Source: Closterium sp. NIES-65 (Eukaryota; Streptophyta; Zygnematophyceae; Desmidiales; Closteriaceae). From it: a stretch of 64,000 nucleotides of DNA. Within the stretch, counting starts at the first letter, position 1. Each line of letters begins with the position of its first letter. Location of the stretch: contig CANXME010002489.1 in the NCBI GenBank assembly GCA_948144175.1, positions 146,078-210,077 of the forward strand. The letters are read 5' to 3'. The notes beneath the pieces were generated by a model. That model was not told the origin of the DNA. It was given only the letters and a program-made list of their open reading frames with translations, and searched no databases. Shown one piece after another: positions 6,216-56,054 of the stretch. A program made the translations under genes and the position numbers.

Positions 6216-6270
6216 GGTGGGCCCGAAGAAAAAAAAAAAACGGTCCTACGGACCTAGTGCTCTGATGCCA
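6216..6270 (-). promoter_or_regulatory. E1 primer-binding site, hairpin and GGGCCCACC box
   Basis: On the minus strand, directly inside the LTR, lies TGGCATCAGAGCACTAGG (6253-6270). It is close to the plant initiator-Met primer site TGGTATCAGAGC. It overlaps a hairpin GGTCC-GTA-GGACC (6242-6254) and is followed by GGGCCCACC (6216-6224). Confidence 0.75.
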
Positions 6271-6401
6271 TGTTAGAATCTAGCAGTAGGAATGATTGCA
6301 TTGAGCAGCATGAGGAGTACAAGTAGGAAACCCTGAAGTGTTGTACCCCATATGAGCTACCCCACTACAGCCTACACAGACTATAGCATATGAGTTTGAC
6401 A
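6271..6401 (-). repeat. E1 5' LTR (right)
   Basis: 131 bp, bounded by TG and CA on the plus strand (TGTTAGAATC to TTTGACA) and abutting the primer site. It resembles the LTR of element I (62142-62272) more than the left LTR of E1. Confidence 0.75.
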
Positions 6402-7675
6402 AGTACTTCGAATGAAGCCTAGCTAGCCTGTGGATCCGGTCGAGTCACGCGGTTTGGGTGGAAGCGCGGCGAGCAACCAACAGAGAGGCGGGGTGGAAGC
6501 TGAGGAGGGAGAAACGCGTGATCTTAGCAGCGGCACGCTAGTGTATGAGAGCTTTACATGTAAAGCGGCAGCGAGAAGCTGAAATGTGGCTTGCTTGTTG
6601 GGCTTGCCTGATGGAACCCCAACGGTCACTCCCTAGATATTGCACAGGAAACCCGGCCCTGAAATTGCTACCAATTTTGACACGTTGACGGCTTCGGCTC
6701 GGCGCGCGAAGGTGGCTGTCAGCAGCAGGTGGAGGATGATTGGTTGTGCTCTCTGAATCTGTCAGCCAATGAAGAACACCTTCGCTGTGAGCTGGATGTG
6801 AAGCGAAGTAACAGACTTCGAAAAGAGATAGCGAAGTTTTATTTGGAATCAAGTCATCCATTCTTACTAATCTAGCTTTTGTGTTCGTATCGAGGTATCC
6901 TCTGTATGGAAACGTTCGCCAACCTCCGCTGCCCTTTCCTGCTGCGCCACCTGCGCCAACAACGGCAGTCAAGAAAGTCCTTGACCAGGTTTATTGCACA
7001 TGTGGCGGGGCGGAGAACAGAAATCGTGAGAGAAGGCGTCACGAGGTTTCACCTGAATTTCTCCTTTTGATTAGTTTCCGTGCCCTGCGGCGATTCATCC
7101 GCGGCCTTTGCAGTGTGAGGTTGCAGAATTACGGTTCGATTAGGCTGCCCGGACGATTCGAAAATATCAACATCAAAGTTATTTTTGATGTATCAGAACT
7201 CACGGAAAAACGGTTGGAAACTCTACTCCCACACTCCTCCCCTCCCCCTCCACCTTCGTTACATTTCACGCTGGCGCTTGCAGAAAAAAATTCGGCAGGT
7301 TGCCCGCTATCGTACCCTCCAAATATGTCACTAACATTGTGGTCACCTTTCCCGCCAGGTAACCCGCCAATTGCGTCCATGTAAATGTCGTCACGCATTC
7401 TCCTGGTTTTCCAGAGCGCATATTGAACAGAACACCCCCAAATCATCTCCTGAAACCGATGTGTATCTCTGCGTACCGTTGCTTAAAAGTTCAGCACCAT
7501 AAAGGTTTGGTTCGTAACCTCCTCATATGCGGCCTCCACCAGATCAGAATATATAGCTATCGACAGGTGATCGAGGTATCAAGTGTTTACTTCGTTAGCT
7601 ATCTCATCACCCAGGCAACATTCCATTTCATTATACTCTAGAAATTGACTCACTAGCTAGGGGCTTTGGTCCGCG
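6402..7675. other. Intergenic region upstream of the CHRD gene
   Basis: No domain is recognised. Open frames exist on both strands (for example minus 6538-6972 and 7129-7446, plus 6881-7384), but none has a motif I can name. An AATATATAGC sequence at 7548-7557 lies about 120 bp before the start codon of the next gene and could be its TATA element; this is weak. Confidence 0.4.
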
Positions 7676-10600
7676 ATGGGGCTCCACCGTTACCTCGGCT
7701 TGTCGGTTTTTCTCCTAGTCGTCACAGCATCCTTCGGTGAGTGACAATAGTAGTTCTCACTCGAATTCCATTAATACATCGAATGTCAGTAGATTCCCTT
7801 GAATTTATCACTCACCCATGCGTTCAATTCAGCTGTTGCTTTCTCATTTATTCCACGTGATTGTTTTCTTCCATCTGCTGCGCAGCGATCACGACGGCAC
7901 GCCCTGTGAAGGACGGGAAGGACAAGGGCGGGAAAAAGGGGCCCCCCGACGCGGGCCCGTGCCTGCTGCCCAAGCCGAAAGACGCCGAGGCTCTCGGGAA
8001 TCTGACGGGTGAGATTTCTCCAGGGAATCTGACGGGTGAGATTCCTCCCGGGAATCTGACAGGTGATAGAATCTCGGGAACGTCTAGACGCTTGGCGGGT
8101 GGTGTGGTCTGTCCGTTCGAGGATTTACGCGTTGAGTTGAAACACGCATCGACGAGATTCAAAAGGATTTCACAAACAAAACGCCAGCTTCTCTCCTTTT
8201 CTCGCCTCTCCTCACACCTCTACCTTCGCGCGCTCACTGTCCTCTCCGCCCTTCTCCCACACCCTTTCGCTCCCCCGCTCCCCTCCCCTCCACGTGCCCT
8301 CCTCTCGGCGTACTCCCTCTCCGCGTCTCCGCGCAGCGATTCTCGCCGCGCGGCTGAACGGATCCGAAATGCTTGGGGCGACGGGCGACGTCAACGCCAC
8401 TGGGCGAGTCTGCCTCGCCGTCTTCGAGTAAGCCACTTGATCCCACTTGCGTATGGTGCGGCCATCACACCATATGCCATCCGCCTGTGATGCGGCCACT
8501 TGTCCCTCTGAGATGCCTTCCGTCTTCAGTCTTCCTCCTGCTGACGAGTCTGCCTCGCCGTCTTCCAGTAAGTCGCTTCATCCATCCGAGTCAGATAAGT
8601 CTCGCCACTTGTCTTCCCCTTGCACATGGTGCCTCGCCGTCTTCGAGTAAGCCCAACCGCTCGTGCTCTGTGCGCCCACCTGGACCTCTATGCTGCCTTC
8701 CCCCTTCCACCCACCCACACAACGGTCACTTTCCGCTCGTGCTCTGTGCGCCCACCCGGACCTCTGTGCTGCCTTCCCCCTTCCACCCACCCACACAACG
8801 GTCACTTTCCGCTCGTGCTCTGTGCGCCCACCCGGACCTCTATGCTGCCTTCCCCCTTCCACCCACCCACACAACGGTCACTTTCCGCTCGTGCTCTGTG
8901 CGCCCACCCGGACCTCTGTGCTGCCTTCCCCCTTCCACCCACCCACACAACGGTCACTGTCCGCTCGTGCTCTGTGCGCCCACCCGGACCTCTATGCTGC
9001 CTTCCCCCTTCCACCCCCCTGGCCACTTTCCGCTCGTGCTCTGTGCGCCCACCCGGACCTCTATGCTGCCTTCCCCCTTCCACCCCCCTGGCCACTTTCC
9101 GCTCGTGCTCTGTGCGCCCACCCGGACCTCTATGTTGCCTTTCCCCTCCCACCCACCCAAACTCAGCGGTCGCTATCCGTTACTCCACTCACATGCGCAT
9201 TTCCATCCCTCCCTTCTGCTCGCTCGTGTGAACCATGACGGAAACTGTCAGGTTAGACGGCGACTACAACGTTTTCTACAGCGTCGTCACCTCCGCCTCC
9301 GACGAAGCCGAGCCGTACGCCCCTTCGATCTATCAAGGCGCGGCGGGAGAGGCGGGAACCGCCGTTCATAATACTGTCGCGGCAGGGGAAACCGCCACGT
9401 GGGTAAATCTTACTCGTTCGCCGCCTCCCCCGCCCAAGGGCAAGAAGAACAAGGGCACACCGCCCGCCCCGCCTCCTCCGAAGTACACTTATGCCACTAA
9501 CGGGACGTGGCTTAAAGCGAGTACATTGTCCACGATCGGCGGGCAGACACTGAAGGAGCTGGTGGATGCGATTATTGCGACGCCGGACGGGTACTACGCG
9601 ACATTCGCGACTACTGATTTTGAGTCGGGTGCGGCGCGGGGGCAGTTTCAGTCGGACCCGCTTCCGCCACCGCCGAAGGGCAAGAAGAGCGGGAAGGATG
9701 GAGGGAAGAAGGGTGGTGGGAAGACTGATGGCGATCGGTTCGGCACTCTTGTGGGTAAGCGCTTAAGAAATGAAGCCTGCTTCGGCTCTCCTGCCTCGCC
9801 CATTCCTGCCTCGCCCAGGCAAATCAACCAAGCGCCGTGCTCCCTCTGGCTCTCACGTAGCAGAGGCAGCGCGACTCACAGCTCCAATTGATATTCTCTG
9901 CATTTTTTTTCCTTCTCCGTGGTTCCGCGACTTCGTGCAGGTGCGGTCGCAGCGCGGGTCAACGGCTCAAGCGTTGACCTCCAAGCTGACGTCAACGCCA
10001 CGGGCTGCGTTGACCTCGTCATCTTCTTGTAAGTTCCCCTTCTCACGTCTCTTTTTGAGGCGCCTCATAAATAGACGGGCTGCGTTCACATCGTCATCTT
10101 CTTGTAAGCTTAGCCGTCTCTCTTCCCTTTTCTCCCTTCTCCCTTCTCCCTTCTCCCTTCTCCCTTCTCCCTTCTCTCGTCTCTCGTCTCTCGACTCGTC
10201 TCATTTTCCTCAGTTCTTCAATTCACTTCTGAGTCGACTCAAAAAAACTCCTCAGTTCTTCAATACTTTTCTCCCCTCCGATCACTCCTTAATCACTCAA
10301 CCTCACCGTACGTGTAGTAACACCCGTCCCTCCCTGCCCCTCCCTGCCCCTCTCTACCAACACCCTCGGTAGAAACGCCACAACCAACGACTACGACATT
10401 TATTACCACGTCCGCGTCAATCTGAACGACTCTGGGGAGCCCACTGGTGTCATCATCAAGAAAGGCGCTGACGTGGCACTCACCGTGACCACCAGCGACG
10501 CCAAGTGGACCAATCGCACGCTCTCAGTCGCCGAGCGCGCCAAGCTGGGCAGGAAACTGTCTCCCAAGGGCAGGAAGGGCAAGCAGCCGCCTCCCCCTCC

Positions 10601-11902: not shown

Positions 11903-11946
11903 TGGTATAGAGCGGGTCCTTCTACGGACCGTTTTTTGGGCCCACC
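11903..11946 (+). promoter_or_regulatory. B primer-binding site, hairpin and GGGCCCACC box
   Basis: TGGTATAGAGCGGGTCC starts right after the LTR. The hairpin GGTCC-TTCTAC-GGACC is at 11915-11930. GGGCCCACC is at 11938-11946, 36 bp from the LTR. Confidence 0.75.
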
Positions 11947-16100: not shown

Positions 16101-18426
16101 TGCCGCTGGAGGTGTGGGTGGCGCTGGTGCTGTCGCTGAGGGTGCTGGTGCTGTCCCTGCTGAGTCTGGAGCTGCCGCGCGGCCTCGGCCGTACTTCGTT
16201 CCGCTCCTACAGCAGGTTCTTGGTCTTTCTCCTTCGGTAGAGTGTCCACAGCCTGTCCAGTCGCAGTCACTGTTGGAGCCTTCCTCTCCTCTGCCTGCTC
16301 CCTCTCCTTACACTGGTCCTACTGGAGGTCTTGCTGAGCGTCGTGAGCCTGCGTCTCGTCCCGCGTCGCCTGTTCGTGCTGCTCGCGCTAGTGGTCGCGG
16401 TTCGCGTCAGCGTCCTCCTCCTGTCCCTGGCACGCACCGGATGTCTCTGCGTCCGTCCACTGCTCCTCTGCGTGCCCCTTTGCCTTCTCCTCCTGAGTCC
16501 TCTCTTCCTGCGCTTGCCGACCCTGAGTCGGACTCTCTTCGCGCTGCCAGTCCTACTGTCACGCGTCTGCTTGCTACTGTCGTCACTGACCCCTCTTTTG
16601 AGTCCACTGCTGCGTCTGCTCTAGTCGCTGAGCTCGTTGACTTTGCTGCTCGCTGTCGTCTCGACTACGCTGCTGGTCTTGTTGCTGAGTCTGTGTCTGT
16701 CTGTCCTCCGTCCGTCGGGGGTGAGTGTGCTCTTGGCACGGACGTCCTAGAGGACAGACAGGAGGAGTTACAGTGTCTAGCGGCTGCTTCACCTCATCTC
16801 GCGTCTGTACTGCTTGCCCCTGAGGGAGACCCGGATGCACTAGACATCCCGACTCCGCGTTCTTACGCGGAGGCCGTAGAGGGTCCCTACTCCTCTCAGT
16901 GGCAGGCAGCTATGGATGCAGAGATGGCTTCCTGGAAGTCCACAGGCACCTACGTTGACGCAGTTCCCCCTCCTGGGGCGAACATCGTCAGTGGCATGTG
17001 GATCTTCCGGGTGAAGCGGCCGCCGGGCTCTCCACCTGTCTTCAAGGCGCGGTACGTTGCTCGTGGCTTCAGTCAGCGGCAGGGAGTTGACTACTTTCAG
17101 ACCTTCTCTCCCACCCCGAAGATGACTACTCTTCGGGTGCTGCTGCACATAGCCGCTCAGCGCGACTACGAGCTTCACTCTCTCGACTTCAGCACTGCGT
17201 TCCTGCAGGGTAGCCTGCACGAGGAGATCTGGCTGCGCCGTCCACCTGGCTTCACTGGGACTTTCCCTCCTGGCACCCAGTGGAGCCTCCGACGGCCAGT
17301 CTACGGTCTCCGCCAGGCACCGCGTGAGTGGCACGACACACTGAGGACTACGCTTGCGGCTCTTGGGTTTGCTCCTTCTACTGCTGACCCGTCGCTGTTT
17401 CTGCGCACCGACACTTCACTGCCGCCGTTCTACATCCTCGTGTACGTCGACGACTTGGTCTTTGCCACAGCGGACACTGCTGGACTCGCCTACGTGAAGT
17501 CCGAACTGCTGAAGAGACACACGTGCACAGACCTGGGTGAACTGCGCAGCTACCTTGGCTTGCAGATCACTCGGGACAGAGCACGCCGCACCATTACCTT
17601 GACTCAGTCACACATGGTGCAGCAGGTCCTTCAGCGCTTCGGCTTCACGTACTCCTCGCCTCAGGCCACTCCTCTGCCTACTCGCCACTCACTCTCAGCT
17701 CTGCCTTCGGATGAGTCCGTAGAGTCGAGTGGTCCGTATGCAGAGCTTGTTGGCTGCCTCATGTACCTGATGACCTGCACACGACCTGACCTTGCATATC
17801 CTCTGAGCATTCTTGCACGCTATGTTGCTCCTGGGAGACACAGACCAGAGCACATGGCTGCAGCGAAGAGGGTATTGCGCTACCTGTGCAGTACGTCGGG
17901 CATGGGGCTTGTGCTTGGAGGGCGGAGTCCAGTGGTCCTTACCGGCCACGCGGACGCTTCTTGGGCTGACGACCAGGCTACGCAGCGGTCGTCACAGGGT
18001 TACACCTTCAGCCTTGGTTCCGGCTCTGTCTCGTGGCGGTCTACTCGCTCGTCTTCGGTTCTCGGCTCCAGTTGTGAGGCTGAGATCTACGCCGGGGCCA
18101 TGGCTGCACAGGAGCTTCGCTGGCTCACCTACCTGCTGACTGACCTTGGAGAGCCGCCTCGTTCTCCTCCAGTGCTGTACGTAGACAACAAGGCCATGCT
18201 GGCCTTGTGTCGAGAGCAGCGCTTGGAGCACAGAACGAAGCACATTGCTCTCCGCTACTTCCTTGCTCGTGAGCTGCAGCAGCGTGGTCAGTTGCGACTT
18301 GCGTACGTGGCCTCTGAGGCCAACACTGCTGATGTGTTCACCAAGGCACTTGCGCCTTGTGATCATCAGCGCTTTTGCACCCAGCTGGGTCTTGTGTTTG
18401 TCTTGCCTCACTTGCTCTCCTCTTGA
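13183..18426 (+). CDS. B copia polyprotein (protease, integrase, reverse transcriptase, RNase H)
   Basis: 1747 residues from the first ATG; the frame is closed by a TAG shortly upstream. It holds two TPxQLREWY motifs in the first 70 residues and C-x13-C-x4-H-x4-C (13411-13485). The protease motif LDSGASRSFF has its Asp at residue 224. The GAG-pre-integrase motif HRLGHPS is near 14330. The integrase triad is Asp448, Asp517 and Glu553, with canonical D-x35-E spacing. A long Gly/Ala/Pro linker (about 15300-16300) contains a 107-residue tandem duplication. The reverse transcriptase has YVDD at residues 1421-1424. RNase H carries Asp1591 (GHADASW), Glu1634 (CEAEIYA) and Asp1668 (YVDNKAM), and the protein ends in TGA. 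The product would cut itself, copy the RNA and integrate the cDNA, but it lacks the Gag shell. It is the only full-length undamaged polyprotein here. Confidence 0.93.
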   Translation: MQPQRRRRESLTPQQLREWYAGWGCRGGDATPTTTPAASTRGDGQMQLPRPSRVSLTPRQLREWYAQSGGSLSAVRCSYVIRTGTRTGQPCGTRSHTPSRCFARLSDAWRTVFGDEAELPDWVELLRQKVDIYALDYDAILTAMYALPTSADRAGHLCNPPDPGIGPAALATGEAAALGASESPAPGTGVAAALGASESASSGAGEAALSGTALASASLTFTLDSGASRSFFRDRTTLTPLGRPVAVSLADPSGGPVLAHFSTVLPCPAAPSGTLSGLYLPSFSTNLVSGADLQDAGVHQFTPASQRVTHCTDARTGRHLATFSRRPGSSLYTLTTESPPVPASGQVAASGQVFAAASRSGPESAPCTCRLLSHETLLWHHRLGHPSLPRLRSMASRVLVSGLPQSLPPLPSGPGPSCVPCVEGRLRATPHSSHFPPTEAPLQTLHMDVWGPAPVRGQDYERYFLLVVDDYSRYTTVLPLRSKGEVTEVLIDWIREARLQLRKSFGSDFPVLRLHSDRGGEFSSGLLRAYCRARGIRQSFTLPDSPQQNGIAERRIGMVMDVARTSMMHAAAPHFLWPFAVRYAAHQLNLHPRVSRPVMSPALLWTGKVGDASVFRVWGSRAFVRDLSADKLSPRAAPCVFLGFPTDAPGWQFYHPSSRRVLSSQDVTFDESVPFYRLFPYRTPSLPPPPDFLVPVPPRVDPLPPQVPAPSGVSQVDAVDPVEVTGDSGAAAGAEPGGADSGGAVRGGAEPGGATAGGTGPAGATAEGAEPGGAEPGGAASGAAEPGVSPAAASRREPLSPQELREWFARRWRRAAESGGAAGAGAGASSTVEGAGAAGPGATGPAGPPRAGAAEGVGAEPTAVGPAAGGVGGAGAVAEGAGAVPAASRAAEPGVSPAAASRREPLSPQELREWYTRRWRRAAESGGAAGVGAGASSTVEGAGAAGPGAARPAGPPGAGGAEGVGAEPTAVGPAAGGVGGAGAVAEGAGAVPAESGAAARPRPYFVPLLQQVLGLSPSVECPQPVQSQSLLEPSSPLPAPSPYTGPTGGLAERREPASRPASPVRAARASGRGSRQRPPPVPGTHRMSLRPSTAPLRAPLPSPPESSLPALADPESDSLRAASPTVTRLLATVVTDPSFESTAASALVAELVDFAARCRLDYAAGLVAESVSVCPPSVGGECALGTDVLEDRQEELQCLAAASPHLASVLLAPEGDPDALDIPTPRSYAEAVEGPYSSQWQAAMDAEMASWKSTGTYVDAVPPPGANIVSGMWIFRVKRPPGSPPVFKARYVARGFSQRQGVDYFQTFSPTPKMTTLRVLLHIAAQRDYELHSLDFSTAFLQGSLHEEIWLRRPPGFTGTFPPGTQWSLRRPVYGLRQAPREWHDTLRTTLAALGFAPSTADPSLFLRTDTSLPPFYILVYVDDLVFATADTAGLAYVKSELLKRHTCTDLGELRSYLGLQITRDRARRTITLTQSHMVQQVLQRFGFTYSSPQATPLPTRHSLSALPSDESVESSGPYAELVGCLMYLMTCTRPDLAYPLSILARYVAPGRHRPEHMAAAKRVLRYLCSTSGMGLVLGGRSPVVLTGHADASWADDQATQRSSQGYTFSLGSGSVSWRSTRSSSVLGSSCEAEIYAGAMAAQELRWLTYLLTDLGEPPRSPPVLYVDNKAMLALCREQRLEHRTKHIALRYFLARELQQRGQLRLAYVASEANTADVFTKALAPCDHQRFCTQLGLVFVLPHLLSS
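15541..16182 (+). repeat. In-frame 321-bp tandem duplication in the B linker
   Basis: GGGGTTTCTCCTGCTGCTGC begins at 15541 and again at 15862. Each unit codes 107 residues including REPLSPQELREW, so the protein has two copies of the linker segment. Confidence 0.85.
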
Positions 18427-20279: not shown

Positions 20280-20973
20280 CACCCCCATAGCCAAAGTGGG
20301 GTGTAATCAGCAGAGCAGGCAAAGCAGTACAAGCTCAGGGTGGATCACAATGTCACCACACATTCTGAGCACAAGTTCAAGAAGAAATAGTTTAGAGTTC
20401 ACAATTATGAGCAAAGCTAGTGGTGGTCACAACGGGCAGGTGAGGAGGAGGAGGGAGAGTGAAAGGAGAGGAGATAGAAGGCGGCGGCTGAAGCTGCAGA
20501 CACACGGGCAACAGGAGTGGCGAGCACAGTGGCTACCGGACTAAGCGCCCGGACTACAGGAGTAACAGGCCCCGCGGCTCAAGTAGCGGCAGACGGGCAA
20601 CGGACCCACAGGCGACTGGCTCAGCGACAAGCTCACTGGGCTACCGGGACAGCGCCCCGGACTACAGGTGCTGCTGACGACAAACTGGCAACCTCCGCTC
20701 ATCCTCCCGCACACAGTCCCACCCCCCCTGATACACACCCACTGCTACACCGCTAGCTCTACTCCCACGCACCCCCCTTAAACCCTAAACCCAGTCTCCC
20801 ACACATCCACCCCCCTCAGCGACAGCTGCAGCAGTGGGAGACGAAGGAGGAGGAGGAGCAAAGGGAGGAAGGAACACCGGCCACCCCCATACCCGCCACC
20901 CCACAGCAAGCGGCCCCCTCAGGTCGCCTCGACAGACGACGAGAAAAGGGGGGGGGGGGGGGGGGAAGGGGGT

Positions 20974-21378
20974 GTGGTGAAAGGGGCCCACCACGGGCCT
21001 GGTTGGAGGGCGGGGCCGCGACGAGGGGCGGGGCCGCGACGGTCGGGGCGGGGCCGCGACGTAGGGCGAGGCCGTTTCGAGGGGCGGGGCCGCGACGCAG
21101 GGCGGGGCCGCGACGTAGGGCGGGGCCGCGTCGAGGGGCGGGGCCGCGACGGTCGGGGCGGGGCCGCGACGTAGGGCGGGGCCGCTTCGAGGGGCGGGGC
21201 CGCGACGCAGGGCGGGGCCGCGTCGAGGGGCGGGGCCGCGACGGTCGGGGCGGGGCCGCGACATAGGGCGGGGCCGCGACGCAGGGCGGGGCCGCGTCGA
21301 GGGGCGGGGCCGCGACGGTCGGGGCGGGGCCGCGACGAGGGGCGGGGCCGCGACGCAGGGCGGGGCCGCGACGTAGGG
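20974..21378 (-). repeat. E3 GC-rich tandem array
   Basis: More than 20 short units of the type GGGGCGGGGCCGCGACG on the plus strand. The frames of up to 269 residues on the minus strand here consist of APPxRRGPA-like repeats and are not taken as genes. Confidence 0.85.
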
Positions 21379-21495
21379 CAGAAGCCCGCCGCGCGCCTCG
21401 GGGCGCACAGCGGGCAAAGAACCGCCGCGCGCCTCGGGGCGCACGGCGGGAGGAAAAAGTAGCAGCGGAAGCGAGGTGGTAACCCACCCACAGGA

Positions 21496-21528
21496 TCGAT
21501 CCAAGGGGATCGACCTGCTCTGATAGCA
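21496..21528 (-). promoter_or_regulatory. E3 primer-binding site and hairpin
   Basis: The minus strand reads TGCTATCAGAGCAGG next to the LTR, then the stem TCGATCC-CCTT-GGATCGA (21496-21513). Confidence 0.75.
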
Positions 21529-23680: not shown

Positions 23681-23778
23681 GAAAAATACGTTGCACGCCA
23701 CGGGGCGCGCAACACAGAGAGTAGCAGTAGCAGCGGAAGCAGTGAGGTGGTGAGCCCACCCACAGGATCGACCCAAGG

Positions 23779-23800
23779 GGATCGACATGCTATGATAGCA
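23779..23800 (-). promoter_or_regulatory. E4 primer-binding site
   Basis: The minus strand reads TGCTATCATAGCATGTCGATCC next to the LTR. It diverges from the usual TATCAGAGC, and the first 13 bases are nearly palindromic. An imperfect hairpin around GGATCGACCC and GGGGATCGAC follows. Confidence 0.6.
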
Positions 23801-37049: not shown

Positions 37050-37095
37050 GGTGGGCCCTAGGCACAGTTCCCTCTAGGGAACCTGCTCGATACCA
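37050..37095 (-). promoter_or_regulatory. C primer-binding site, hairpin and GGGCCCACC box
   Basis: The minus strand reads TGGTATCGAGCAGGT at the LTR edge, then the stem GTTCCC-TAGA-GGGAAC (37067-37082), then GGGCCCACC (37050-37058), 37 bp from the LTR. Confidence 0.78.
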
Positions 37096-38234: not shown

Positions 38235-38256
38235 TGGTTTCAAAGCAGGAGGTCAC
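38235..38256 (+). promoter_or_regulatory. F primer-binding site and left half of its hairpin
   Basis: TGGTTTCAAAGCAGG at the LTR edge. The AGGTC arm that follows is cut by element D. Its partner GGACCT is at 45740-45745, and GTGGGCCCACC is at 45752-45762. With D and the duplicated five bases removed, the hairpin would be AGGTCC-CGA-GGACCT and the box would lie 36 bp from the LTR. Confidence 0.7.
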
Positions 38257-38387
38257 TGAGAAAACTGAAACGAGAATGAATGAACTATGAAACAGTTGGG
38301 TACAAGTACTAACCCTAATTGGGTTGAACCCCATATGGGCTACCCCACTACAGCCTATACAAAAGCATAAGCTATAATGTTCTGACA
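38257..38387 (-). repeat. D 3' LTR (left)
   Basis: 131 bp, TGAGAAAACT to GTTCTGACA. Confidence 0.9.
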
Positions 38388-38618
38388 CACCCCCATAGGC
38401 AAAGTGGGGGAGAACAAGGGGTCACAAGACCAGTCAAGCAAAGCAAAGCAAAGCAAAGCAAGCTCAGGGTGGATCACAAAGTCACCACACATTCCGAGCA
38501 CAAGTTCAAGGCCACAAGGCCAGTTCACATGCAGGAGTACACAAACACACATATATATATATATATAAGGCTAGACAAGCAAGAGCAGGTGTATATATAT
38601 GTAAGAGTACAAGCAAGG

Positions 38619-40604
38619 TCAAGAGGTGAGCAAGTGAGGCAAGACAGGCACAAGACCAAGCTGAGTACAGAAGCGCTGATGATCACAAGGCGCAAGTGCC
38701 TTGGCGAAGATATCAGCAGTGTTGGCCTCAGAGGCCACGTACGCAAGACGCAGCTGACCACGCTGCTGCAGCTCACGAGCAAGGAAGTAGCGAAGAGCAA
38801 TGTGCTTCGTTCTGTGCTCCAGTCTCTGCTCTCGACATAAGGCCAGCATGGCCTTGTTGTCTACGTACAGCATTGGAGGAGAACGAGGCGGCTCTCCAAG
38901 GTCAGTCAGCAGGTAGGTGAGCCAGCGTAGCTCCTGTGCAGCCATGGCCCCGGCGTAGATCTCAGCCTCACAACTGGAGCCGAGAACAGAAGACGAGCGG
39001 GTAGCCCGCCACGAAACAGAGCCGGAACCAAGGCTGAAGGTGTAACCCTGTGACAACCGCTGCGTAGCCTGGTCGTCCGCCCAAGAAGCGTCTGCGTGAC
39101 CAGTGAGGACCACTGGACTCCGCCCTCCAAGCACAAGCCCCATGCCCGACGTACTACACAAGTAGCGCAACACCCTCTTCGCTGCAGCCATGTGCTCCAG
39201 TCTGTGTCTCCCAGGAGCAACATAGCGTGCGAGAATGCTAAGAGGGTATGCAAGGTCAGGTCGAATGCAGGTCATCAGGTACATGAGGCAGCCAACAAGC
39301 TCTGGGTACGGGCCACTCGACTCTACGGACTCATCCGAAGGCAGAGCTGAGAGCGAGTGGCGAGTAGGCAGAGGAGTGGCCTGAGGCGAGGAGTACGTGA
39401 AGCCGAAGCGCTGAAGGACCTGCTGCACCATGTGTGACTGAGTCAGGGTAATGGTGCGGCGTGCTCTGTCCCGGGTGATCTGCAACCCAAGGTAGCTGCG
39501 CAGTTCACCCAGGTCTGTGCACGTGTGTCTCTTGTGCAGCTCGGACTTCACGTGGGCGAGTCCAGCAGTGTCAGCTGTGGCAAAGACCAAGTCGTCGACG
39601 TACACGAGGATGTAGAACGGCGGCAAAGAAGTGTCGGTGCGCAGAAACAGCGACGGGTCGGCAGTAGAGGGAGCAAACCCAAGAGCCGCAAGCGTAGTCC
39701 TCAGTGTGTTGTGCCACTCACGTGGTGCCTGGCGGAGACCGTAGACTCGCCGCCGGAGGCTCCACTGGGTGCCAGGAGGAAAAGTCCCAGTGAAGCCAAG
39801 TGGGTGGCGCAGCCACATCTCCTCGTGCAGGCTACCCTGCAAGAAAGCAGTGCTGAAGTCGAGAGAGAGAAGCTCGTAGTCGCGCTGAGCGGCTATTTGC
39901 AGCAGCACCCGAAGAGTGGTCATCTTCGGGGTGGGAGAGAAGGTCTGAAAGTAGTCAACTCCCTGCCGCTGACTGAAGCCACGAGCCACGTACCGCGCCT
40001 TGAAGACAGGCGGAGAACCCGGCGGCCGCTTCACCCTAAAAATCCACATGCCACTGACTTTCTTCGCCCCAGGTGGGGGAACCTCGTCAACGTAGGTGCC
40101 TGTGGACTTCCAGGAAGCCATCTGTACGTCCATAGCTGCCTGCCACTGAGAGGAGTAGGGACCCTCTATCGCCTCCGCGTAAGAGCGCGGAGTCGGGATG
40201 TCAAGTGCATCCGGGTCTCCCTCACGGGTAAGCAGTACAGACACGAGATGAGGTGAAGCAGCAGCCAGACACTGGAACTCCTCCTGCCTGTCCTCAAGGA
40301 CGTCCGTGCCAAGGGCACACTCACCCCCGACGGACGGAGGACAGACAGACTCAGACTCAGGGACAACACTATCAGCGTAGTCTAGACGACAGCGAGCAGC
40401 AAAGTCGACGAGCTCAGCAACTAGGGCAAACGCAGCAGTGGACTCAAAGGAAGGGTCAGTGATGATAGTAGCAAGGAGACGTGTGACATTAGGACTGGCA
40501 GAACGAAGAGAGTCCAACTCAGGGTCGGCAAGAGCAGGAAGAGAGGACTCAGGAGGAGAGGGCAAAGGGGCACGCAGAGGCGCAGTGGACGGACGCAGAG
40601 ACAT
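38619..40604 (-). CDS. D reverse transcriptase and RNase H, open 661-residue part of the polyprotein
   Basis: This is the longest undamaged piece of D. It begins MSLRPSTAPL in the linker after integrase; the methionine is internal to the polyprotein, not a natural start. It has the RVT_2-type copia reverse transcriptase (GPYSSQWQAAMD, FSQRQGVDYFQTFSPT, LDFSTAFLQG, YILVYVDDLVFA). RNase H follows (GHADASW, SSCEAEIYAGAMAAQELRW, YVDNKAMLAL, HRTKHIALRY) and TGA at 38619-38621. All catalytic Asp and Glu residues expected for both activities are visible. Whether any protein is made is doubtful, because the reading frame upstream is closed in several places. Confidence 0.85.
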   Translation of the reverse strand: MSLRPSTAPLRAPLPSPPESSLPALADPELDSLRSASPNVTRLLATIITDPSFESTAAFALVAELVDFAARCRLDYADSVVPESESVCPPSVGGECALGTDVLEDRQEEFQCLAAASPHLVSVLLTREGDPDALDIPTPRSYAEAIEGPYSSQWQAAMDVQMASWKSTGTYVDEVPPPGAKKVSGMWIFRVKRPPGSPPVFKARYVARGFSQRQGVDYFQTFSPTPKMTTLRVLLQIAAQRDYELLSLDFSTAFLQGSLHEEMWLRHPLGFTGTFPPGTQWSLRRRVYGLRQAPREWHNTLRTTLAALGFAPSTADPSLFLRTDTSLPPFYILVYVDDLVFATADTAGLAHVKSELHKRHTCTDLGELRSYLGLQITRDRARRTITLTQSHMVQQVLQRFGFTYSSPQATPLPTRHSLSALPSDESVESSGPYPELVGCLMYLMTCIRPDLAYPLSILARYVAPGRHRLEHMAAAKRVLRYLCSTSGMGLVLGGRSPVVLTGHADASWADDQATQRLSQGYTFSLGSGSVSWRATRSSSVLGSSCEAEIYAGAMAAQELRWLTYLLTDLGEPPRSPPMLYVDNKAMLALCREQRLEHRTKHIALRYFLARELQQRGQLRLAYVASEANTADIFAKALAPCDHQRFCTQLGLVPVLPHLLTS

Positions 40605-43600
40605 CTAGTGCATGCCAGGGACAAGAGGAGGAAGCTGACGCGAACCGCGACCACTAGTGCGAGCAGCACGGACAGGCGACGCAGGGCGAGACGCAGGCTC
40701 ACGACGCTCAGCAAGACCTCCAGTAGGACCAGTGTAGGGAGAAGGAGCAGGCAGTGGGGAGGCGGGCTGTAAGTGTAACTGTGACAGGACAGGCTGTGGA
40801 CACTCTAAGGGAGGAGGAGGACTAGTAGAAGGCGAGAGACCAAGAACCTGCAGAAGGAGCGGAACGAAGTACGGCCGAGGCCGCGCAGCGACTCAAGAGA
40901 CAACAGGGACAGCACCAGCAGCCCCAGCGGCAGCACCCGCGCCAGCAGCACCTCCAGCTCCAGTACCGCCAGTAACACCGCCGAAAGGACCGACAGCAGA
41001 AGTCTCAGCGCCAACACCCTTAGCAGCTCCAGCTCCAGACGCAGCCGCCGGCCCAGCAGCTCCAGTACCTCCACTACGAGCACCTCCGGGACCCGCGGCA
41101 CCAGCACCCTCAGTACCCGAAGAACCTCCAGCAATAGCAGTACACCGGGCAAACCACTCGCGCAGCTACTGTGGAGAGAGTGGCGCCCGCCGAGACGAAG
41201 CACCCGGAGAACCTCCAGACGCCTCACAAGCAGGCCCAACTCCCTCAGGCTCCACACCCCCAGGCTCAGCACCTCCAGACGTAGCACCCCCAGACTCAGT
41301 ACCCCCAGGCGTAGCACCCCCAGGCTCAACACCTCCAGACGTAGCACCCCCAGGCGCAGCACCCCCAGGCGTAGCACCCCCAGGCTCAGCACCCCCAGGC
41401 TCAACACCCCCAGGCTCAGCACCCCCAGGAGCAGCACCCCCAGTCTCAGCACCCCCAGGCTCAGCACGCACACGCTCAGCACCCTCAGAGTCAGCACCCC
41501 CAGGCTCAGCACCCTAAGCAGCACCAGAGTCACCAGTGACCTCGACAGGCTCGAATGCGTCTACCTGGGACACACCTGAAGGGGCTGGACCCTGAGGGGA
41601 GAGGGGGTGTACCTGGGGGGGACCTGGTACAAGGAAGAGCGGCTGCGGGGGGAGGGACGGAGTGCGCTAGTGGAAGAGACGGTAGTAGGGGACCGACTTG
41701 TCAAACGTGACGTCCTGGGAGGACGAGAGGTGGGGTGGTAGAACTGCCACCCTGGCGCGTTAGGGGGGAAACCCAGGAAGACGCAGGGAGCAGCACGAGG
41801 GGACAGCTTGTTCGCAGACAAGTCGCGAACAAACGCAACCTTCCCCGTCCACAGCAAGGCTGGGGAGGTCTCCGGCCGGGAGACCCTGGGGTGGAGGTTG
41901 ATCTGATGCGCCGCGTACCTGACCGCAAACGGCCACAGAAAGTGGGGGGAAGCCGCATGCATCATGGACGTATGAGCGACGTCCATGACCATGCCAATGC
42001 GGCGCTCAGCAATCCCATTTTGCTGTGGTGAGTCTGGAAGCGTGAAGGTCTGGCGGATGCCTCGTGCACGACAGTAGGCTCGCAGAAGGCCAGAGGAGAA
42101 CTCTCCGCCTCTGTCAGAGTGTAGACGCAGAACAGGAAAGTCTGAGCCAAAGCTCTGCCTGAGCCGGAGACGAGCTGCGCGGATCCAGTCGATCAGCACC
42201 TCAGTGACATCACCCTTGCTGCGCAAGGGGAAGACTGTGGTGTAACGTGAGTAGTCGTCAAACACCAGCAGGAAGTAGCGCTCGTGACCCTGTCCACGGA
42301 CGCGAGCGGGGCCCCACACGTCTAGGTGAAGCGTCTGCAGCGGGGCCTCTGTCGGAGGAAACTAGGAGGAGTGAGGGGCAGCGCGCTGGCGCCCCTCGAC
42401 ACAGGGGACGCAGGTAGGGCCAGGCCCCGGAGGAAGGGGAGGGAGGGACCGGGGAAGACCAGAGACAAGGAGACGGGAGGCCATGCCTCGGAGACGAAGC
42501 AGGGAGGGGTGACCAAGGCGGTGGTGCCAGAGGAGAGTCTCGTGAGAAAGGAGGCGACACGAGCAGGGGGCAGACTCAGGACCAGACCTGGACTCTGCAG
42601 CAAACACCTGACCCGACGCAGCTACCTGGCCAGACGCAGGGACAGAAGGGGACGTAGTGGTCAGTGTGTACAGGCTCGACCCCGGCCGACGAGTAAACGT
42701 GGCCAAGTGTCGGCCCGTCCGAGCGTCCGTGTAGTGGGTCACCTGCTGGCTCGCAGGAGTGAACTGGTGGACTCCCCCATCCTGAAGGTCAGCACCACTC
42801 ACCAACTTCGTAGAGAACGAGGGGAGGTAAAGACCAGACAGGGTGCCAGAGGGAGCCGCCGGACACGGGAGGACAGTGGAGAAGTGAGCAAGGAAAGGAC
42901 CCCGAGAGGGGTCTGCCAGAGAGACCGCAACTGGCCGACCAAGCGGCGTGAGTGTGGTGCGGTCTCGGAAGAAGGAGCAAGAAGCCCCCGAGTCAAGGGT
43001 GAAGGTGAGGAAGGCCGAAGCTGACTTGGTACCTGAGAGCGCGGACTCACCAGCACCTGAGGGAGCAGACGCACTGGCACCTAGAGCAGCAGCCTCACTA
43101 GTACCTAGAGCAGCAGTCTCAATGCCCTGGTCGGGCGGGAAACACTGGTAACAGTCATCCTCATCACTAATAGTCACATCATACATGGCAGCAAGGATAG
43201 CATCAAAGTCAAGATCAAAGATAGCTACTCCGGCCCTAGACAGCTCACCCCAGCGGGGGATCTCCGTGGCCTCCGGAAACTGGTGACGCAAAGCGTCCGT
43301 CAGGCGGCCAAAGCAGTGCTGGGTGGGGTGCGCACCCCCACACTGCTCACCCGCGTGGTCGACGGTGCGTAGGACGTAGGTGTACGGACCAGTACCCCCA
43401 CCCCGCTGGCGTGCAGCGTACCACTCACGGAGCTGCTGAGGGGGAGGGGGGGGGGGGATGTCACGAGTGCGCTGCTGCTGCTGCTTGCGCTGACCACCAC
43501 CAGAGCCGACCCTCTGCGCAGCGCCACCCCGACCAGCTCCACCTCCTCCGCCACCGCCTCCTCCACCACCGCCACCCCCGCCACCTCCGCTCCCACTGCC

Positions 43601-44572
43601 ACCACCGCCGCCTCCGCCGCCACTGCCGCCACCGACACATCCACCCCCGCCACCACCCCCACCACCACCCCCACCCCCTTCGCCGCCTCCACCGCCGCCT
43701 CCACCGCCCCTGCTAGCTCCTCCAGCGCCCCTGCCCCCCTTGCCCTTGCCAGGGCGGCGTCTCCCTCTAGGGGTAGACGCCGCACCGACCGACTCAAGCC
43801 CAACGAGGTCGGCCGCAACAGCAGAGGCAACAGAGGGCAAAAGGGGGGAGGGGGAACACCCCTCAAAGATGGGGGTGCGCGGGTCACCACAAGAGGCTCC
43901 TACAGCGACTATGCTCTTCTCCGCTGCTAAGAGGGCCTTCTCGAGTAGGTCAACAGTGAGAGTGGTGGGACAGACTGAGAGGAAGTGGTCCCTGACCACG
44001 CGAAGGGAGTCAGGGAGATGGGTGACTATGTAGTAGAGAGTGATGTACATGGGGGGGGGGGTTCTTGGCGCAGAACTCCGCAGGAAGCGCAGCGCGGTAG
44101 CGAGTGTCACTAGTGCGGAGGTGCGTAATGAGGTCAGCGACTGTGGGAAAGGCAGCAAGGTCAGGGAAGTGGTACGGTAGCATGAGGCGGCTCAGTGCAG
44201 CAGTGGCAGGGGAGGAGTAGCGTGCAACTACAGCGTCGTACAAGGTCTGAGCACTCTTGTACTGGCTAAAGTGCGCACGCTCAGAGGTAGGCAGGTGGCG
44301 ACGCACAGCAAGACGTGCAGCAGCATCGCGCGTGGCCCACTGTGAGCGAACAGTGGCATCAGCATCAGCAGCAGGGGCAGGAGAGGCACCAAAGGTGAGG
44401 TCAAAGAGAGAGAGACCGTCTGCCATATCGCACTGTAAGAAAAGCTGCAGGTCATCTAACCAGACGTCAAAGTCAATGGCCCGACCCTCAGCGTCAAAAG
44501 CGAGGGTCATTGACTTTGACGCTTGGATAGATGACCTGAGGGTCAAAAGCTTTTGACGCTAGGGGTAGCCAT
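40605..44572 (-). pseudogene. D Gag, protease and integrase region, disrupted
   Basis: The Gag start codon is at 44570-44572, but within 60 bases an inverted duplicate of the next segment destroys the frame (44500-44550). Gag then reads FDAEGRAIDFDVWLDDLQLFLQCD and on to a run of 11 C at 44051-44061, another shift. From 44158 the frame is open for 598 residues: rest of Gag, Gly-rich stretch, QQLREWYA, the C-x13-C motif, protease (LDSGASCSFF, with Cys in place of Arg) and GAG-pre-integrase. TAG at 42362-42364 at a Gln codon ends it. The integrase has HLDVWG, LHSDRGGEF and QQNGIAERRIG but a 12-residue deletion after LLWTGKV and a frameshift near 41720. The linker is full of GGAEPGGA repeats and a TAG at 41166-41168. 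Confidence 0.88.
44479..44550 (-). other. Inverted duplication at the D gag start
   Basis: Plus-strand CATTGACTTTGACGCTTGGA (from 44508), continuing through GATAGATGACCT, is an imperfect reverse complement of the neighbouring 44449-44476 segment (AGGTCATCTAACCAGACGTC...). The other gag copies lack it. It looks like a template-switch event. Confidence 0.75.
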
Positions 44573-44639
44573 GACAGCAGTAGACTAGCAGCGCAATTAG
44601 TAGGGTGAGGGCAGTGCAATGACAGAGGCGCTGCTCTTA

Positions 44640-45470
44640 CCGGACAGGGCGGCTCGGGCGGCTCGGCTGCAGGGCGACTCGGCGGCTCGGCGGCTCGGTT
44701 GCAGGGCGGCTCGGCGGCTCGGCGGCTTGGCGGCTCGGCTGCTCGGCTGCTGGGCGGCTTGGCTGCAGGGCGGCTCGGCGGCTGGGCGGCTCGGCGGTTC
44801 GGCTGCAGGGCGGCGCGGCGGTCGGCTGCTCGGCTGGGCGTGGCGGCTTGGGTGGCTCGGGTGGCGGGCGGCGCTGCAACAGGCTACGGCGGCTGCGCCG
44901 TAGTGGTGGCGGCGGGGCCGTGATGGGACGGCGGCGAGGCCGGCAGAGGCAGTGCCGGGGCCGCAAGTAAGGGCGGTGGGGCCGCAGGTAGGTGGCGGGG
45001 CCGCAGGTAGGTGGCGGGGCCGCAGGTAGGTGGCGGGGCCAGCAGGTAGGCGCCGGGGTCACACAGGTACGCGTCGGGGCCGCAGGTAGGCGCCGGGGCC
45101 GCAGGTAGGTGGCGGGGCCGCAGGTAGGTGGCGGGGCCGCAGGTAGGTGGCGGGGCCAGCAGGTAGGCACCGGTGCCGCAGGTAAAGGCGGCGGGGCCGC
45201 AGGTAGGTGGCGGGGCCGCAGGTAGGTGGCGGGGCCAGCAGGTAGGCGCCGGGGCCGCAGGTAAGGGCGGCGGTAGGGCCGCAGGGCGGCGCGAGGGCCG
45301 CGGGGCAGGCGACGAGGCCACAGGGCGGCGGATCGGGGCCGGGAGAGGGCAGTGCGAGGGCCACGGGGTAGGCGATGAGGCCGCAGGGCGGCGGGTCGGG
45401 GCCAGGAAGGGCGGCGCGAGGGCCGCGAGGTAGGCGACGGGGCCGCTAGGGCCACTGATCGGGGCCGCAA
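44640..45470 (-). repeat. D leader GC-rich tandem arrays
   Basis: (CGGCTCGG)n-type DNA at 44650-44880, followed by units of about 18-20 bp, GGTGGCGGGGCCGCAGGTA, at 44960-45270. Similar GC-rich DNA continues to 45470. Confidence 0.8.
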
Positions 45471-45555
45471 GGGCGGCGCGACGGGGTCGAGAAGGGGAGC
45501 GCGACTCGGGCTAGGGTTGAGCGCGCTCCGGGCAGGAAAAAAAAAATATCGAGTT

Positions 45556-45601
45556 GGTGGGCCCTAGGAACAGTTCCCACGAGGGAACCTGCTTGATACC
45601 A
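45556..45601 (-). promoter_or_regulatory. D primer-binding site, hairpin and GGGCCCACC box
   Basis: The minus strand reads TGGTATCAAGCAGGT, the stem GTTCCC-TCGT-GGGAAC (45573-45588), then GGGCCCACC (45556-45564), 37 bp from the LTR. Confidence 0.78.
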
Positions 45602-45732
45602 TGAGAAAACTGAAACGAGAATGAATGAACTATGAAACAGTTGGGTACAAGTACTAACCCTACCTGGGTTGTACCCCATATCGGCTACCCCACTACAGCC
45701 TAAACAGAAGCATAAGCTATAATGTTCTGACA
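45602..45732 (-). repeat. D 5' LTR (right)
   Basis: 131 bp; followed by GTCCC, the right copy of the target duplication. Confidence 0.9.
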
Positions 45733-45751
45733 GTCCCGAGGACCTAACTCT

Positions 45752-45762
45752 GTGGGCCCACC
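45752..45762 (+). promoter_or_regulatory. F GTGGGCCCACC box
   Basis: The full palindromic form of the box shared by six elements. It agrees with the consensus bound by plant TCP transcription factors (GTGGGNCCCAC). A T-run follows. Confidence 0.5.
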
Positions 45763-50647: not shown

Positions 50648-51379
50648 CACCCCCATAGCCAAAGTGGGGTGTAATCAGCAGAGTAGGCAAAGCAGTACAA
50701 GCTCAGGGTGGATCACAATGTCACCACACATTCTGAGCACAAGTTCAAGAAGAAATAGTTTAGAGTGCACAATTATTAGCAAAGCTAGTGGTGGTCACAA
50801 CGGGCAGGTGAGGAGGAGGAGGGAGAGTGAGAGGAGAGGAGATAGAAGGCGGCGGCTGAAGCTGCAGACACACGGGCAACAGGAGTGGCGAGCACAGTGG
50901 CTACCGGACTAAGCGCCCGGACTACAGGAGTAACAGGCCCCGCGGCTCAAGTAGCGGCAGACGGGCAACGGACCCACAGGCGACTGGCTCAGCGACAAGC
51001 TCACTGGGCTACCGGGACAGCGCCCCGGACTACAGGTGCTGCTGACGACAAACTGGCAACCTCCGCTCATCCTCCCGCACACAGTCCCACCCCCCCTGAT
51101 ACACACCCACTGCTACACCGCTAGCTCTACTCCCACGCACCCCCCTTAAACCCTAAACCCAGTCTCCCACAGATCCACCCCCCTCAGCGACAGCTGCAGC
51201 AGTGGGAGACGAAGGAGGAGGAGGAGCAAAGGGAGGAAGGAACACCGGCCACCCCCATACCCGCCACCCCACAGCAAGCGGCCCCCCTCAGGTCGCCTCG
51301 ACAGACGACGGGAAAAGGGGGGGGGGGGTGGGGGGGGGGGGGGGGAAGGGGGTGTGGTGAAAGGGGCCCACCACGGGCC

Positions 51380-51695: not shown

Positions 51696-51855
51696 CGTAG
51701 GGCAGAAGCCCGCCGCGCGCCTCGGGGCGCACAGCGGGCAAAGAACCGCCGCGCGCCTCGGGGCGCACGGCGGGCAGAAAACCGCCGCGCGCCTCGGGGC
51801 GCACGGCGGGAGGAAAAAGTAGCAGCGGAAGCGAGGTGGTAACCCACCCACAGGA

Positions 51856-51888
51856 TCGATCCAAGGGGATCGACGTGCTCTGATAGCA
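51856..51888 (-). promoter_or_regulatory. E3b primer-binding site and hairpin
   Basis: The minus strand reads TGCTATCAGAGCACGTCGATCC, with the stem TCGATCC-CCTT-GGATCGA at 51856-51873, as in E3. Confidence 0.75.
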
Positions 51889-54450: not shown

Positions 54451-54688
54451 AGATCTACATCCGCTCGATCTACGGCCCACATTCCAACTTTCAGTTCATT
54501 TGGGACAGTTCATCATCAACCGTCAGATCGAAATCGGACTTCATCAACGGCCGGCATTCCAACCTTTCTTCAAATTTGTTGAAGACAATTTCAGCCGTCG
54601 GATTTACTTGGGCCGGAAGATCAACAGTGTTCTCGTTATGGAGAGACTCGTTTACGTACAGGGAAAGCTTATTTGGAAGGTGGGAGAG
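54451..54688. other. Non-coding DNA after F
   Basis: Contains a GACAATTTCAGCCGTCGG motif like those of repeat R. No gene seen. Confidence 0.4.
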
Positions 54689-54961
54689 TTTAAGGAATTA
54701 GAATTCCTTACTGTAGTCAGTTATTAGCGAAGACATCGCGAAGGTCACGCGAGGAACCTGTTCGGCCTATTTCGTCGGCCGAACCACCCCCGAGTCGGCC
54801 TCCGCTCCAATCGCATCCATCACCGAGCCATCCTCGCCCAAGCTCACCGCCTTGCTAGGACTTCCCCTATTTAGGCCTCGTCACTTTGTGATTTCAGTCA
54901 TTCAGTAATTCTCATTCTCGTTATTCGTTTTACTGCGCACTCTGCAAGTTCATTCATAACA
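54689..54961 (+). repeat. Dispersed LTR-like repeat, copy 2
   Basis: About 273 bp, beginning with the 9-bp inverted repeat TAAGGAATT-AG-AATTCCTTA and ending CATTCATAACA. Matches 11073-11309 and 55289-55560. Confidence 0.7.
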
Positions 54962-55288
54962 CTCCTTGTCACTCCCATAGCTCGCAAGACCCTGCTACCA
55001 GCACTTACAAGATTTCCCACCAACACTTACCATGGCAACACCCACGTGTACTCAATGCCTTGGACCTCACTTCTTGGCATTTGCGAACACCAAACACCGC
55101 TGGTAACATCACTAGTAATTTAGTTGTGCAACAAATCATGCTAGCCAGGAAACTTGATAAAAACGCCCAATGCGCTGTGTACAGTATCGGTGCCCAAAAG
55201 AGGTTTGGTTGGCCCACCCCAGGGTCCTCGCTAGTGCTAGAACCTGCCTGATGCATCAGACGGGCCCTTTGGGCCCGTCTTCTGCATC
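54962..55288. other. Spacer between two LTR-like repeats
   Basis: 327 bp with no recognised gene. Near its right end is the perfect hairpin AGACGGGCCC-TTT-GGGCCCGTCT (55258-55280), preceded by the palindrome TGATGCATCA. Possibly the interior of a miniature LTR element, but no primer site, polypurine tract or flanking duplication supports that. Confidence 0.4.
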
Positions 55289-55560
55289 TGTAAGGATTTA
55301 CAAATCCTTACTGAGGCACTCGTTAGCGAGGCCATCCCGAGGGTCACGTGACGAACCTGTCCTTCCTATTTCATCACACCGAACCACTCCCGAGTCGGCC
55401 TCCGTTCCAATCGCAACCATCACCGAGCCATCCTCGCCCAACCTCCCCGCCTAGCTAGGTTTTCCCCTATTTAGGCCTCGCTACTTCATTGTTTCTTCAT
55501 TCTGTAATTCTCATTCTCGTTATTTGATATTCTACGCACTCTGCAAGTTCATTCATAACA
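55289..55560 (+). repeat. Dispersed LTR-like repeat, copy 3
   Basis: 272 bp, TGTAAGGATT to CATTCATAACA. The opening inverted repeat is TAAGGATTT-AC-AAATCCTTA. Compared with copy 2 both arms changed together. Confidence 0.7.
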
Positions 55561-55616
55561 CCTTGTATTATAGCTACTTTCCTAGCCTACCCCGCTTTTT
55601 AGAGTGTAATATCCCT

Positions 55617-55618
<2 letters not shown>

Positions 55619-55668
<50 letters not shown>
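55619..55668. repeat. Run of 50 G
   Basis: An uninterrupted homopolymer of 50 bases directly after LTR-like DNA and before repeat R. It could be real, or a read or assembly artefact. Confidence 0.8.
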
Positions 55669-55670
<2 letters not shown>

Positions 55671-55744
55671 GAGGAAGGATGTCGTGGGGTCGAGGAGTTG
55701 CTTAGGCCGGCCCGGAGAACTAGTTAGTTGCTCCTCGCGGCTAT

Positions 55745-55882
55745 GTTTTTACGGGTACTCCTTCGGCACCGCCAGATCCTTGCCTCGAACGGTCGCGATC
55801 AACCGTGGCCTCCCTCCACCCGGGCAACGGACAGCTGTAGCTGTCGCGACATTAAACGTGAGTACTATTCCGCTGCGGTTTT
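55745..55882 (+). repeat. Non-coding repeat R, copy 2, first segment
   Basis: 55798-55880 matches 21757-21840 closely (CCCGGGCAACGGACAGCTG, GTCGCGACATTnAACGTGAGT). Interrupted by element H at 55883. Confidence 0.65.
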
Positions 55883-56008
55883 TGTCAAACTTATATGCTA
55901 TAGTTTGTGTAGGCTATAGTGGGGTAGACACTATGGAGTACAACAGTTTTAGGTTTTCATACTTGTACCCACCTCTTTCCTAGTTCATTCATTCCTCGTT
56001 TCTTCACA
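55883..56008 (+). repeat. H 5' LTR
   Basis: 126 bp, TGTCAAACTT to TTCTTCACA, judged by similarity to the other LTRs. Confidence 0.78.
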
Positions 56009-56054
56009 TTGTATAGAGCAGGTTCCCTAGTGGGAACTTTTCCTAGGGCCCACC
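56009..56054 (+). promoter_or_regulatory. H primer-binding site, hairpin and GGGCCCACC box
   Basis: TTGTATAGAGCAGGTTCC after the LTR, the stem GTTCCC-TAGT-GGGAAC (56022-56037), and GGGCCCACC at 56046-56054, 37 bp from the LTR. Confidence 0.75.

Follow-up and report, generated by a model that had tools for sequence, protein, structure and literature searches.

What role do the short hairpin and the box GGGCCCACC play behind the primer-binding site (PBS) of the long terminal repeat (LTR) retrotransposons of Closterium sp. NIES-65? The question is raised by a stretch of 64,000 nucleotides from this genome (the window; contig CANXME010002489.1, positions 146,078 to 210,077), which carries the coding elements E1, B, C, D, F and H as well as short elements. 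An earlier note on this DNA had drawn attention to both features and had proposed a structured primer site combined with an internal promoter element of the kind recognised by plant TCP factors. We suggest a different role for the box. The leader is probably a multi-segment primer-binding site for the initiator methionine tRNA (iMet) of Ty1/copia elements, in which the box looks like a further, putative docking site for the primer rather than a gene switch.

Complementarity to the initiator tRNA

The window elements have the domain arrangement of Ty1/copia (Pseudoviridae), with integrase before reverse transcriptase. In Pfam, the frame at 13171-18423 matches gag_pre-integrs, rve, SH3_retrovirus and RVT_2 in that order; seven of the nine other window open reading frames scanned show subsets of these domains and two have no match. 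The window itself contains no tRNA gene according to ARAGORN and no match to Rfam. The genome-wide scans covered the one genome that contains the window (874 Mb), which holds 32 matches to the iMet gene at no more than two mismatches, 28 of them with none. ARAGORN called all five loci tested as tRNA (four Met, the fifth with a changed anticodon), and Rfam called tRNA at both iMet loci tested. The iMet genes contain GCGTGGTGGGCCCATAACCC, with GGTGGGCCC at tRNA positions 26-34, and read in reverse complement, GGGCCCACC is thus identical to iMet from C34 to G26 (standard numbering), that is, to the 5' strand of the anticodon stem and part of the loop. The PBS lies directly behind the LTR, as in Ty1-type elements, and complements the 3' end of the same tRNA; the two segments are collinear with it. 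The chance that a given 9-mer matches antisense iMet outside the PBS is 2e-4 to 7e-4, depending on composition. In calculated duplexes with iMet, the box reaches -21.8 kcal/mol and the 12-nt PBS -20.2; two common 11-nt forms of the PBS come to -14.6 and -13.2, and the box is therefore the stronger predicted contact in the commonest families.

In the window, GGGCCCACC occurs eight times against 1.76 expected, a count that none of 100 shuffles reaches, and six of the eight copies are the leader boxes of E1, B, C, D, F and H. The remaining two (20984-20992 and 51364-51372, both on the plus strand) lie in GC-rich repeats of short elements, on the strand opposite to those elements, and are not leader boxes.

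The complementarity bears directly on the promoter proposed by the earlier note, in which a transcription factor, TCP or another, would bind the box as DNA and drive the element from within. The class I TCP consensus is fitted by GGGCCCAC (a motif of the GGNCCCAC type), and the GTGGGCCCAC of element F is palindromic. Yet the box is exactly complementary to the anticodon arm of the very tRNA that the PBS selects, and in line with the PBS, and kindred leaders in other families extend into the complement of the D arm; for these reasons the TCP reading is set back, since it leaves the T-arm and D-arm complementarity unexplained. Furthermore, the GGNCCCAC-type motif is kept in the six coding elements but its core is lost in the GGGCCCGCC, GGGTTACC and GGGCTTACC lineages, where the long tRNA complementarity stays. 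We consider the promoter the weaker reading and a very improbable one.

Copy number and conservation

The 12-nt PBS TGGTATCAGAGC occurs at 17,425 places genome-wide (control 8), and at 2,409 places it is followed 10-40 nt on by the exact box, an arrangement with no match for the reversed-pattern control. An 11-nt PBS (TGGTATAGAGC or TGGTATCGAGC) is followed by the exact box over the same distance at 20,871 places (reversed control 0), which brings the total to 23,280. At most of the box-bearing places counted, then, the PBS is one base short of the iMet complement. A tRNA ending in GCTCKATA, which would fit the 11-nt PBS, was not found in the genome with a pattern that covered iMet-like tRNAs.

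A sample chosen by PBS alone consisted of 100 listed 12-nt PBS places minus six of one cluster on a single contig (C10); with identical stretches and two that were too short dropped, 90 leaders were left. The exact box is present in 13 of these, a share that agrees with the genome-wide 2,409 of 17,425. Among the rest are near-exact boxes (L046, L078 and L117), a truncated box (L066), short elements with a B box and elements without any box; they represent other families or damaged copies. We scanned the frames of eight no-box elements with Pfam: four have a copia-type gag (L040, L043, L044 and L048), one has Pol_BBD alone (L053), one is of Ty3/gypsy type (L063) and two have no match (L042 and L068). 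By eye, the PBS of L040, L043 and L048 seems to lie 2-3 nt off the LTR end; with L044 these elements form a natural contrast set.

A second sample was chosen by the hairpin, as 28 copies with exact GGTTCCCTAGTGGGAAC (eight from the search output and 20 picked by hand from its list), and the exact box is found in 24 of them (23 of 27 by script; L143 was read separately). Across 27 of these copies, mean pairwise identity reaches 0.96 within the box and falls to 0.70 over the preceding 8 nt and to 0.37 over the following 12 nt, in an alignment anchored on the best box match, which somewhat favours the box.

Leaders of the coding elements and the hairpin

The earlier note had described a stem followed by GGGCCCACC in every coding element of the window, and reading the sequence at each place bears this out for all six: the arms are GGTCC/GGACC in E1 and B, GTTCCC/GGGAAC in C, D and H, and AGGTCC/GGACCT in F. 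In E1 (minus strand), the PBS segment TGGCATCAGAGC (6259-6270) complements the iMet 3' end with one mismatch, the hairpin GGTCC-GTA-GGACC occupies 6242-6254, and the box (6216-6224) is 46 nt from the LTR end. Element B (plus strand) has the 11-nt PBS TGGTATAGAGC, one base short of the iMet complement, at 11903-11913, the hairpin GGTCC-TTCTAC-GGACC at 11915-11930, and the box at 11938-11946, 35 nt from the LTR end. The 11-nt PBS of C (minus strand) is TGGTATCGAGC (37085-37095); the 5' arm of its hairpin GTTCCC-TAGA-GGGAAC (37067-37082) partly coincides with AGGTT, the T-stem part of the PBS, and its box (37050-37058) is the exact complement of iMet 34-26, or of 34-25 when the next A is included. 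Element D (minus strand) has the 11-nt PBS TGGTATCAAGC (45591-45601), the hairpin GTTCCC-TCGT-GGGAAC (45573-45588) and the box (45556-45564), and element H (plus strand) the PBS TTGTATAGAGC (56009-56019), the hairpin GTTCCC-TAGT-GGGAAC (56022-56037) and the box (56046-56054). A run of 50 G lies upstream of H at 55619-55668. The leader of F (plus strand) is interrupted by D (38257-45732), which is nested between both arms of the F hairpin and flanked by GTCAC and GTCCC, a 5-bp duplication with one change. The PBS TGGTTTCAAAGC and the 5' arm of F lie to the left of D (38235-38254), the 3' arm (GGACCT) and the box GTGGGCCCACC to its right (45733-45762; the box itself at 45754-45762), and because D splits F, the stem and spacing of F are read across the insertion.

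The distance from LTR end to box is 35 nt in B, 37 nt in C, D and H, 46 nt in E1 and about 38 nt in F (a hand count across the nested D). The value of 46 that the earlier note had given for E1 stands, whereas its 36-37 for the other five was slightly off. Position also bears on half-tRNA priming as a further reading of the box. Drosophila copia, like Ty5, is half-tRNA primed. On this model, a cleaved fragment of iMet would prime at the box itself: the box complements part of the anticodon stem-loop, from which Ty5 is primed (PMC5371799), and a few leaders such as L070 read TATGGGCCCACC. But the place next to the LTR is already taken by a PBS for the 3' end, with the box at a distance of 35-46 nt, and the window boxes are without the TTAT needed by a fragment ending near nucleotide 38. 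In five window elements no anticodon-arm complement adjoins the LTR as a Hemivirus priming site does. We find half-tRNA priming hardly credible here. A search for TTATGGGCCCACC as a sign of such priming gave 107 places against 76 for the control, 29 of the 107 at iMet genes, and this candidate was set aside for its little excess.

The hairpin was evaluated in the 74 distinct spacers among the listed matches of 12-nt PBS and box, which are related to one another. A stem of at least five Watson-Crick pairs is present in 52 of the 74, compared with 13% of dinucleotide shuffles; in 13 of the 74, no stem of at least four pairs was found in the registers tried. The earlier note had suggested covariation as a check, and two-sided pair changes are indeed seen: in register 21, C-G replaces T-A at spacer pair 5:16, and in register 20, G-C replaces T-A at 4:16 and T-A replaces C-G at 5:15. 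Because registers were assigned by best stem and the kinship among the sequences was kept in, these changes support selection for pairing but fall short of proof. The structured primer site is in this respect supported: pairing in the stem is kept as its sequence changes, and the 5' arm (AGGTT, AGGTC) overlaps the T-stem part at the tail of the PBS. Some families, such as those with a ATCTACGCTCCTGGCCTGT box, lack a stem of this kind, and the box is therefore independent of the hairpin.

Leaders that extend to the D arm

Complementarity to iMet does not end at the anticodon arm: further leader segments complement the D arm and, in part, the T arm. Three short-element leaders of the window, all on the minus strand, show this. 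The leader at 21462-21528 is a gapped antisense copy from the iMet 3' end to nucleotide 12 (score 22, shuffle mean 8.6), composed of the PBS TGCTATCAGAGC (one mismatch), T arm, anticodon arm and D arm; those at 23730-23800, with GGGCTCACC and GCTTCCGCTGC, and at 51822-51888 are of like kind. All three align to antisense iMet over the T, anticodon and D arms (scores 20-22 against shuffle means of 8.6-9.0), and are thus gapped antisense of most of iMet. Their stem TCGATCC/GGATCGA, also described in the earlier note, is present, although GGGTCGA occurs as partner arm as well.

Genome-wide, the PBS with GCTTCCGCTGC, an 11-nt complement of the D arm reaching nucleotide 12, is found at 795 places (control 0), and a 29-nt antisense-like block from L117, comprising the anticodon arm without its 7-nt loop plus the D arm, at 904 places with no more than three mismatches (control 0). 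An exact 16-mer reaching nucleotide 7 occurs at 28 places, each of them an iMet gene (reversed control 29), and therefore no leader continues exactly to nucleotide 7. In local alignments to antisense iMet, p was below 0.05 for 16 of 16 box-type leaders, one of 11 no-box leaders (L068) and neither of two B-box leaders, where some box-type leaders had been chosen for carrying the box and p is uncorrected for 29 tests. L068, counted as no-box, has a weak D-arm-like complement (p 0.03).

The 73 distinct D-arm spacers among the matches listed include hairpin-type leaders with a D-arm segment. Column identities were taken from 31 of the 43 non-short spacers, those with exact GTGGGCCC, which served as anchor. 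Identity is 0.87-1.0 in the CCT before GTGGGCCC and 0.64-1.0 in the TCCTGG block before that, and 0.24-0.71 at the bases upstream of TCCTGG; the blocks TCCTGG and CCTGTGGG are kept and the bases preceding them vary. Among the iMet loci L009-L038 we find two T-stem alleles, CGAGG/CCTCG and a rarer CCAGG/CCTGG (six of 30). We note that the TCCTGG of many D-arm leaders is the complement of the rarer allele.

The D-arm leaders keep GGGCCC better than ACC (in the alignment anchored on GTGGGCCC), which would also suit a palindromic contact between two genomic RNAs, a kissing site. GGGCCC is self-complementary, and such sites are known from retroelement leaders, as dimer initiation sites (PMC5445492) and as the kissing loops of Ty1 (PMC5454406). 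Against a dimer contact, the hairpin families also retain the ACC that lies beyond the palindrome, the short elements carry the non-palindromic GGGTTACC or GGGCTCACC, and the hairpin loop does not present the palindrome. It strikes us as highly improbable.

The near full-length, collinear antisense in the short elements and in the L117 and L046 families could instead mark a relic, an antisense iMet copy made by a reverse transcriptase that ran past its usual stop on the tRNA primer, with the box left over and without present function. Positions 9-10 of iMet are methylated in other eukaryotes. The absence of exact continuation from nucleotide 12 towards nucleotide 7, close to these positions, would fit a relic, as would the decay of the ACC end of the box in D-arm leaders. 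Yet the hairpin families hold the box at 0.96 identity when the sequence following it is at only 0.37, and continual rewriting would restore the PBS, whereas 20,871 of the 23,280 exact-box places keep the form that is one base short and that no iMet-like tRNA was found to fit. A relic is in our judgement unlikely.

A different kind of tRNA likeness is seen in L059, L070, L087, L105 and others. In these short, LTR-like elements, a tRNA T arm in sense orientation comes after the PBS and contains GGTCTCGGGTTCGAATCCCGG, which we take to be a B box. In L059, TGTCAGAATAATATATAG, resembling an LTR start, appears about 42 nt after the start of the PBS, so the internal region may be almost only the tRNA-like stretch. 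This differs from Helenus, whose tRNA-like sequence sits in the LTR (PMC10886601).

Discussion

We infer that the leader pairs with iMet through several segments. The leader RNA would pair first with the 3' acceptor end, over 11-12 nt and, in many families, the T-stem AGGTT as well; the second contact would be that of GGGCCCACC with the anticodon arm from C34 to G26, and in several families a third would be made with the D arm through GCTTCCGCTGC, to nucleotide 12. Lying between the first and the second contact, the hairpin probably either folds the intervening stretch and so brings the pairing sites close, or masks the tail of the PBS until annealing of the tRNA. By analogy with Ty1, the extended site may serve in tRNA selection, packaging or the start of reverse transcription. 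As to origin, the leader may have arisen as an antisense copy of the tRNA: the collinear antisense suggests a reverse transcriptase that read through its tRNA primer. It is possible, though we advance it tentatively, that the leader is a captured antisense iMet copy, the enzyme having run through the primer to about nucleotide 12, that families have kept different subsets of the contacts, and that in the largest families the anticodon-arm contact became the main anchor as the PBS weakened to 11 nt. For Ty1, Lauermann and Boeke (1994) reportedly found no inheritance of the primer sequence, an argument against continual rewriting.

A number of observations weigh against the multi-segment site. 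The copia-type elements L040, L043, L044 and L048 have the same 12-nt PBS without the box, and the box is therefore non-essential for some iMet-primed elements. In D-arm leaders, the ACC columns of the box are identical at only 0.29, 0.47 and 0.76, with 0.32-0.55 in the next columns; there the GTGGGCCC part is therefore kept and ACC is not. Substitutions in these leaders keep pairing in 23 cases and break it in 43, the latter being partly indels (four of the 43 spacers, without match, were omitted). The E1 leader scores equally against antisense and sense iMet (10 and 10). Changes from C to T in CCC, which would keep a G.U pair, are found at 158 places beyond the exact box, and changes from G to A in GGG, which would break pairing, at 87; three of the four listed inexact C-to-T rows come from the short-element lineage, and as evidence for pairing the wobble asymmetry in the GGGCCC palindrome gives no support. 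The exact 12-nt PBS with the exact box was not found in viral and prokaryote contig collections, which we assume to be poor in eukaryotes. Finally, pairing requires that the anticodon stem of iMet be opened, and our proposal rests on sequence comparison within one genome.

The closest known system is the extended primer interaction of Ty1, a member of the same Ty1/copia superfamily with the same iMet primer. Short segments 3' of the PBS (Box 0, Box 1 and Box 2.1) complement other arms of the primer tRNA (PMC5454406; PMC4974528). The Ty1 boxes are of 6-7 nt and address the T or D hairpins, whereas the Closterium box is of 9-10 nt, addresses the anticodon arm and is calculated to be stronger than the PBS; some Closterium families, moreover, cover most of the tRNA. 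The bipartite PBS of Ty3 likewise contacts one iMet by separate genomic segments (PMC5371799). Ty3, in contrast, is a Ty3/gypsy element whose second part lies in the 3' U3 about 4.8 kb away; in Closterium no part is farther than about 75 nt from the LTR end. In HIV-1, the A-rich loop is located upstream of the PBS. There, too, a genomic segment besides the PBS touches the primer at its anticodon region (PMC7793103), but the tRNA is tRNA-Lys3 and the anticodon loop is contacted, and here it is chiefly the 5' strand of the anticodon stem, together with some of the loop. The half-tRNA-primed Hemivirus Ty5 uses the anticodon stem-loop region of iMet (PMC5371799; PMC8515867); its anticodon-arm site primes at the LTR, whereas in Closterium the PBS for the 3' end is found there and the box is internal. 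A conserved hairpin directly behind the 5' LTR is also known from the Conserved Hairpin Site of fungal GalEa copia elements, where the hairpins replace the PBS (PMC5445492), unlike the Closterium leaders, in which PBS and hairpin coexist. Our literature search, which left most of the subscription literature outside, brought up no description of a leader like this for copia elements of algae or plants.

Contacts of a tRNA primer at multiple sites are known from yeast elements and HIV-1. The related Closterium families present graded versions of such a site, up to a near full-length antisense tRNA, and with the box-bearing places at hand they make the contacts testable by natural variation. Annotation of a PBS by its first 12-18 nt can miss part of such a site. 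If our proposal for their origin is true, elements could pass from full-tRNA priming (Pseudovirus type) to anticodon-arm priming (Hemivirus type) by way of leaders captured as antisense tRNA.

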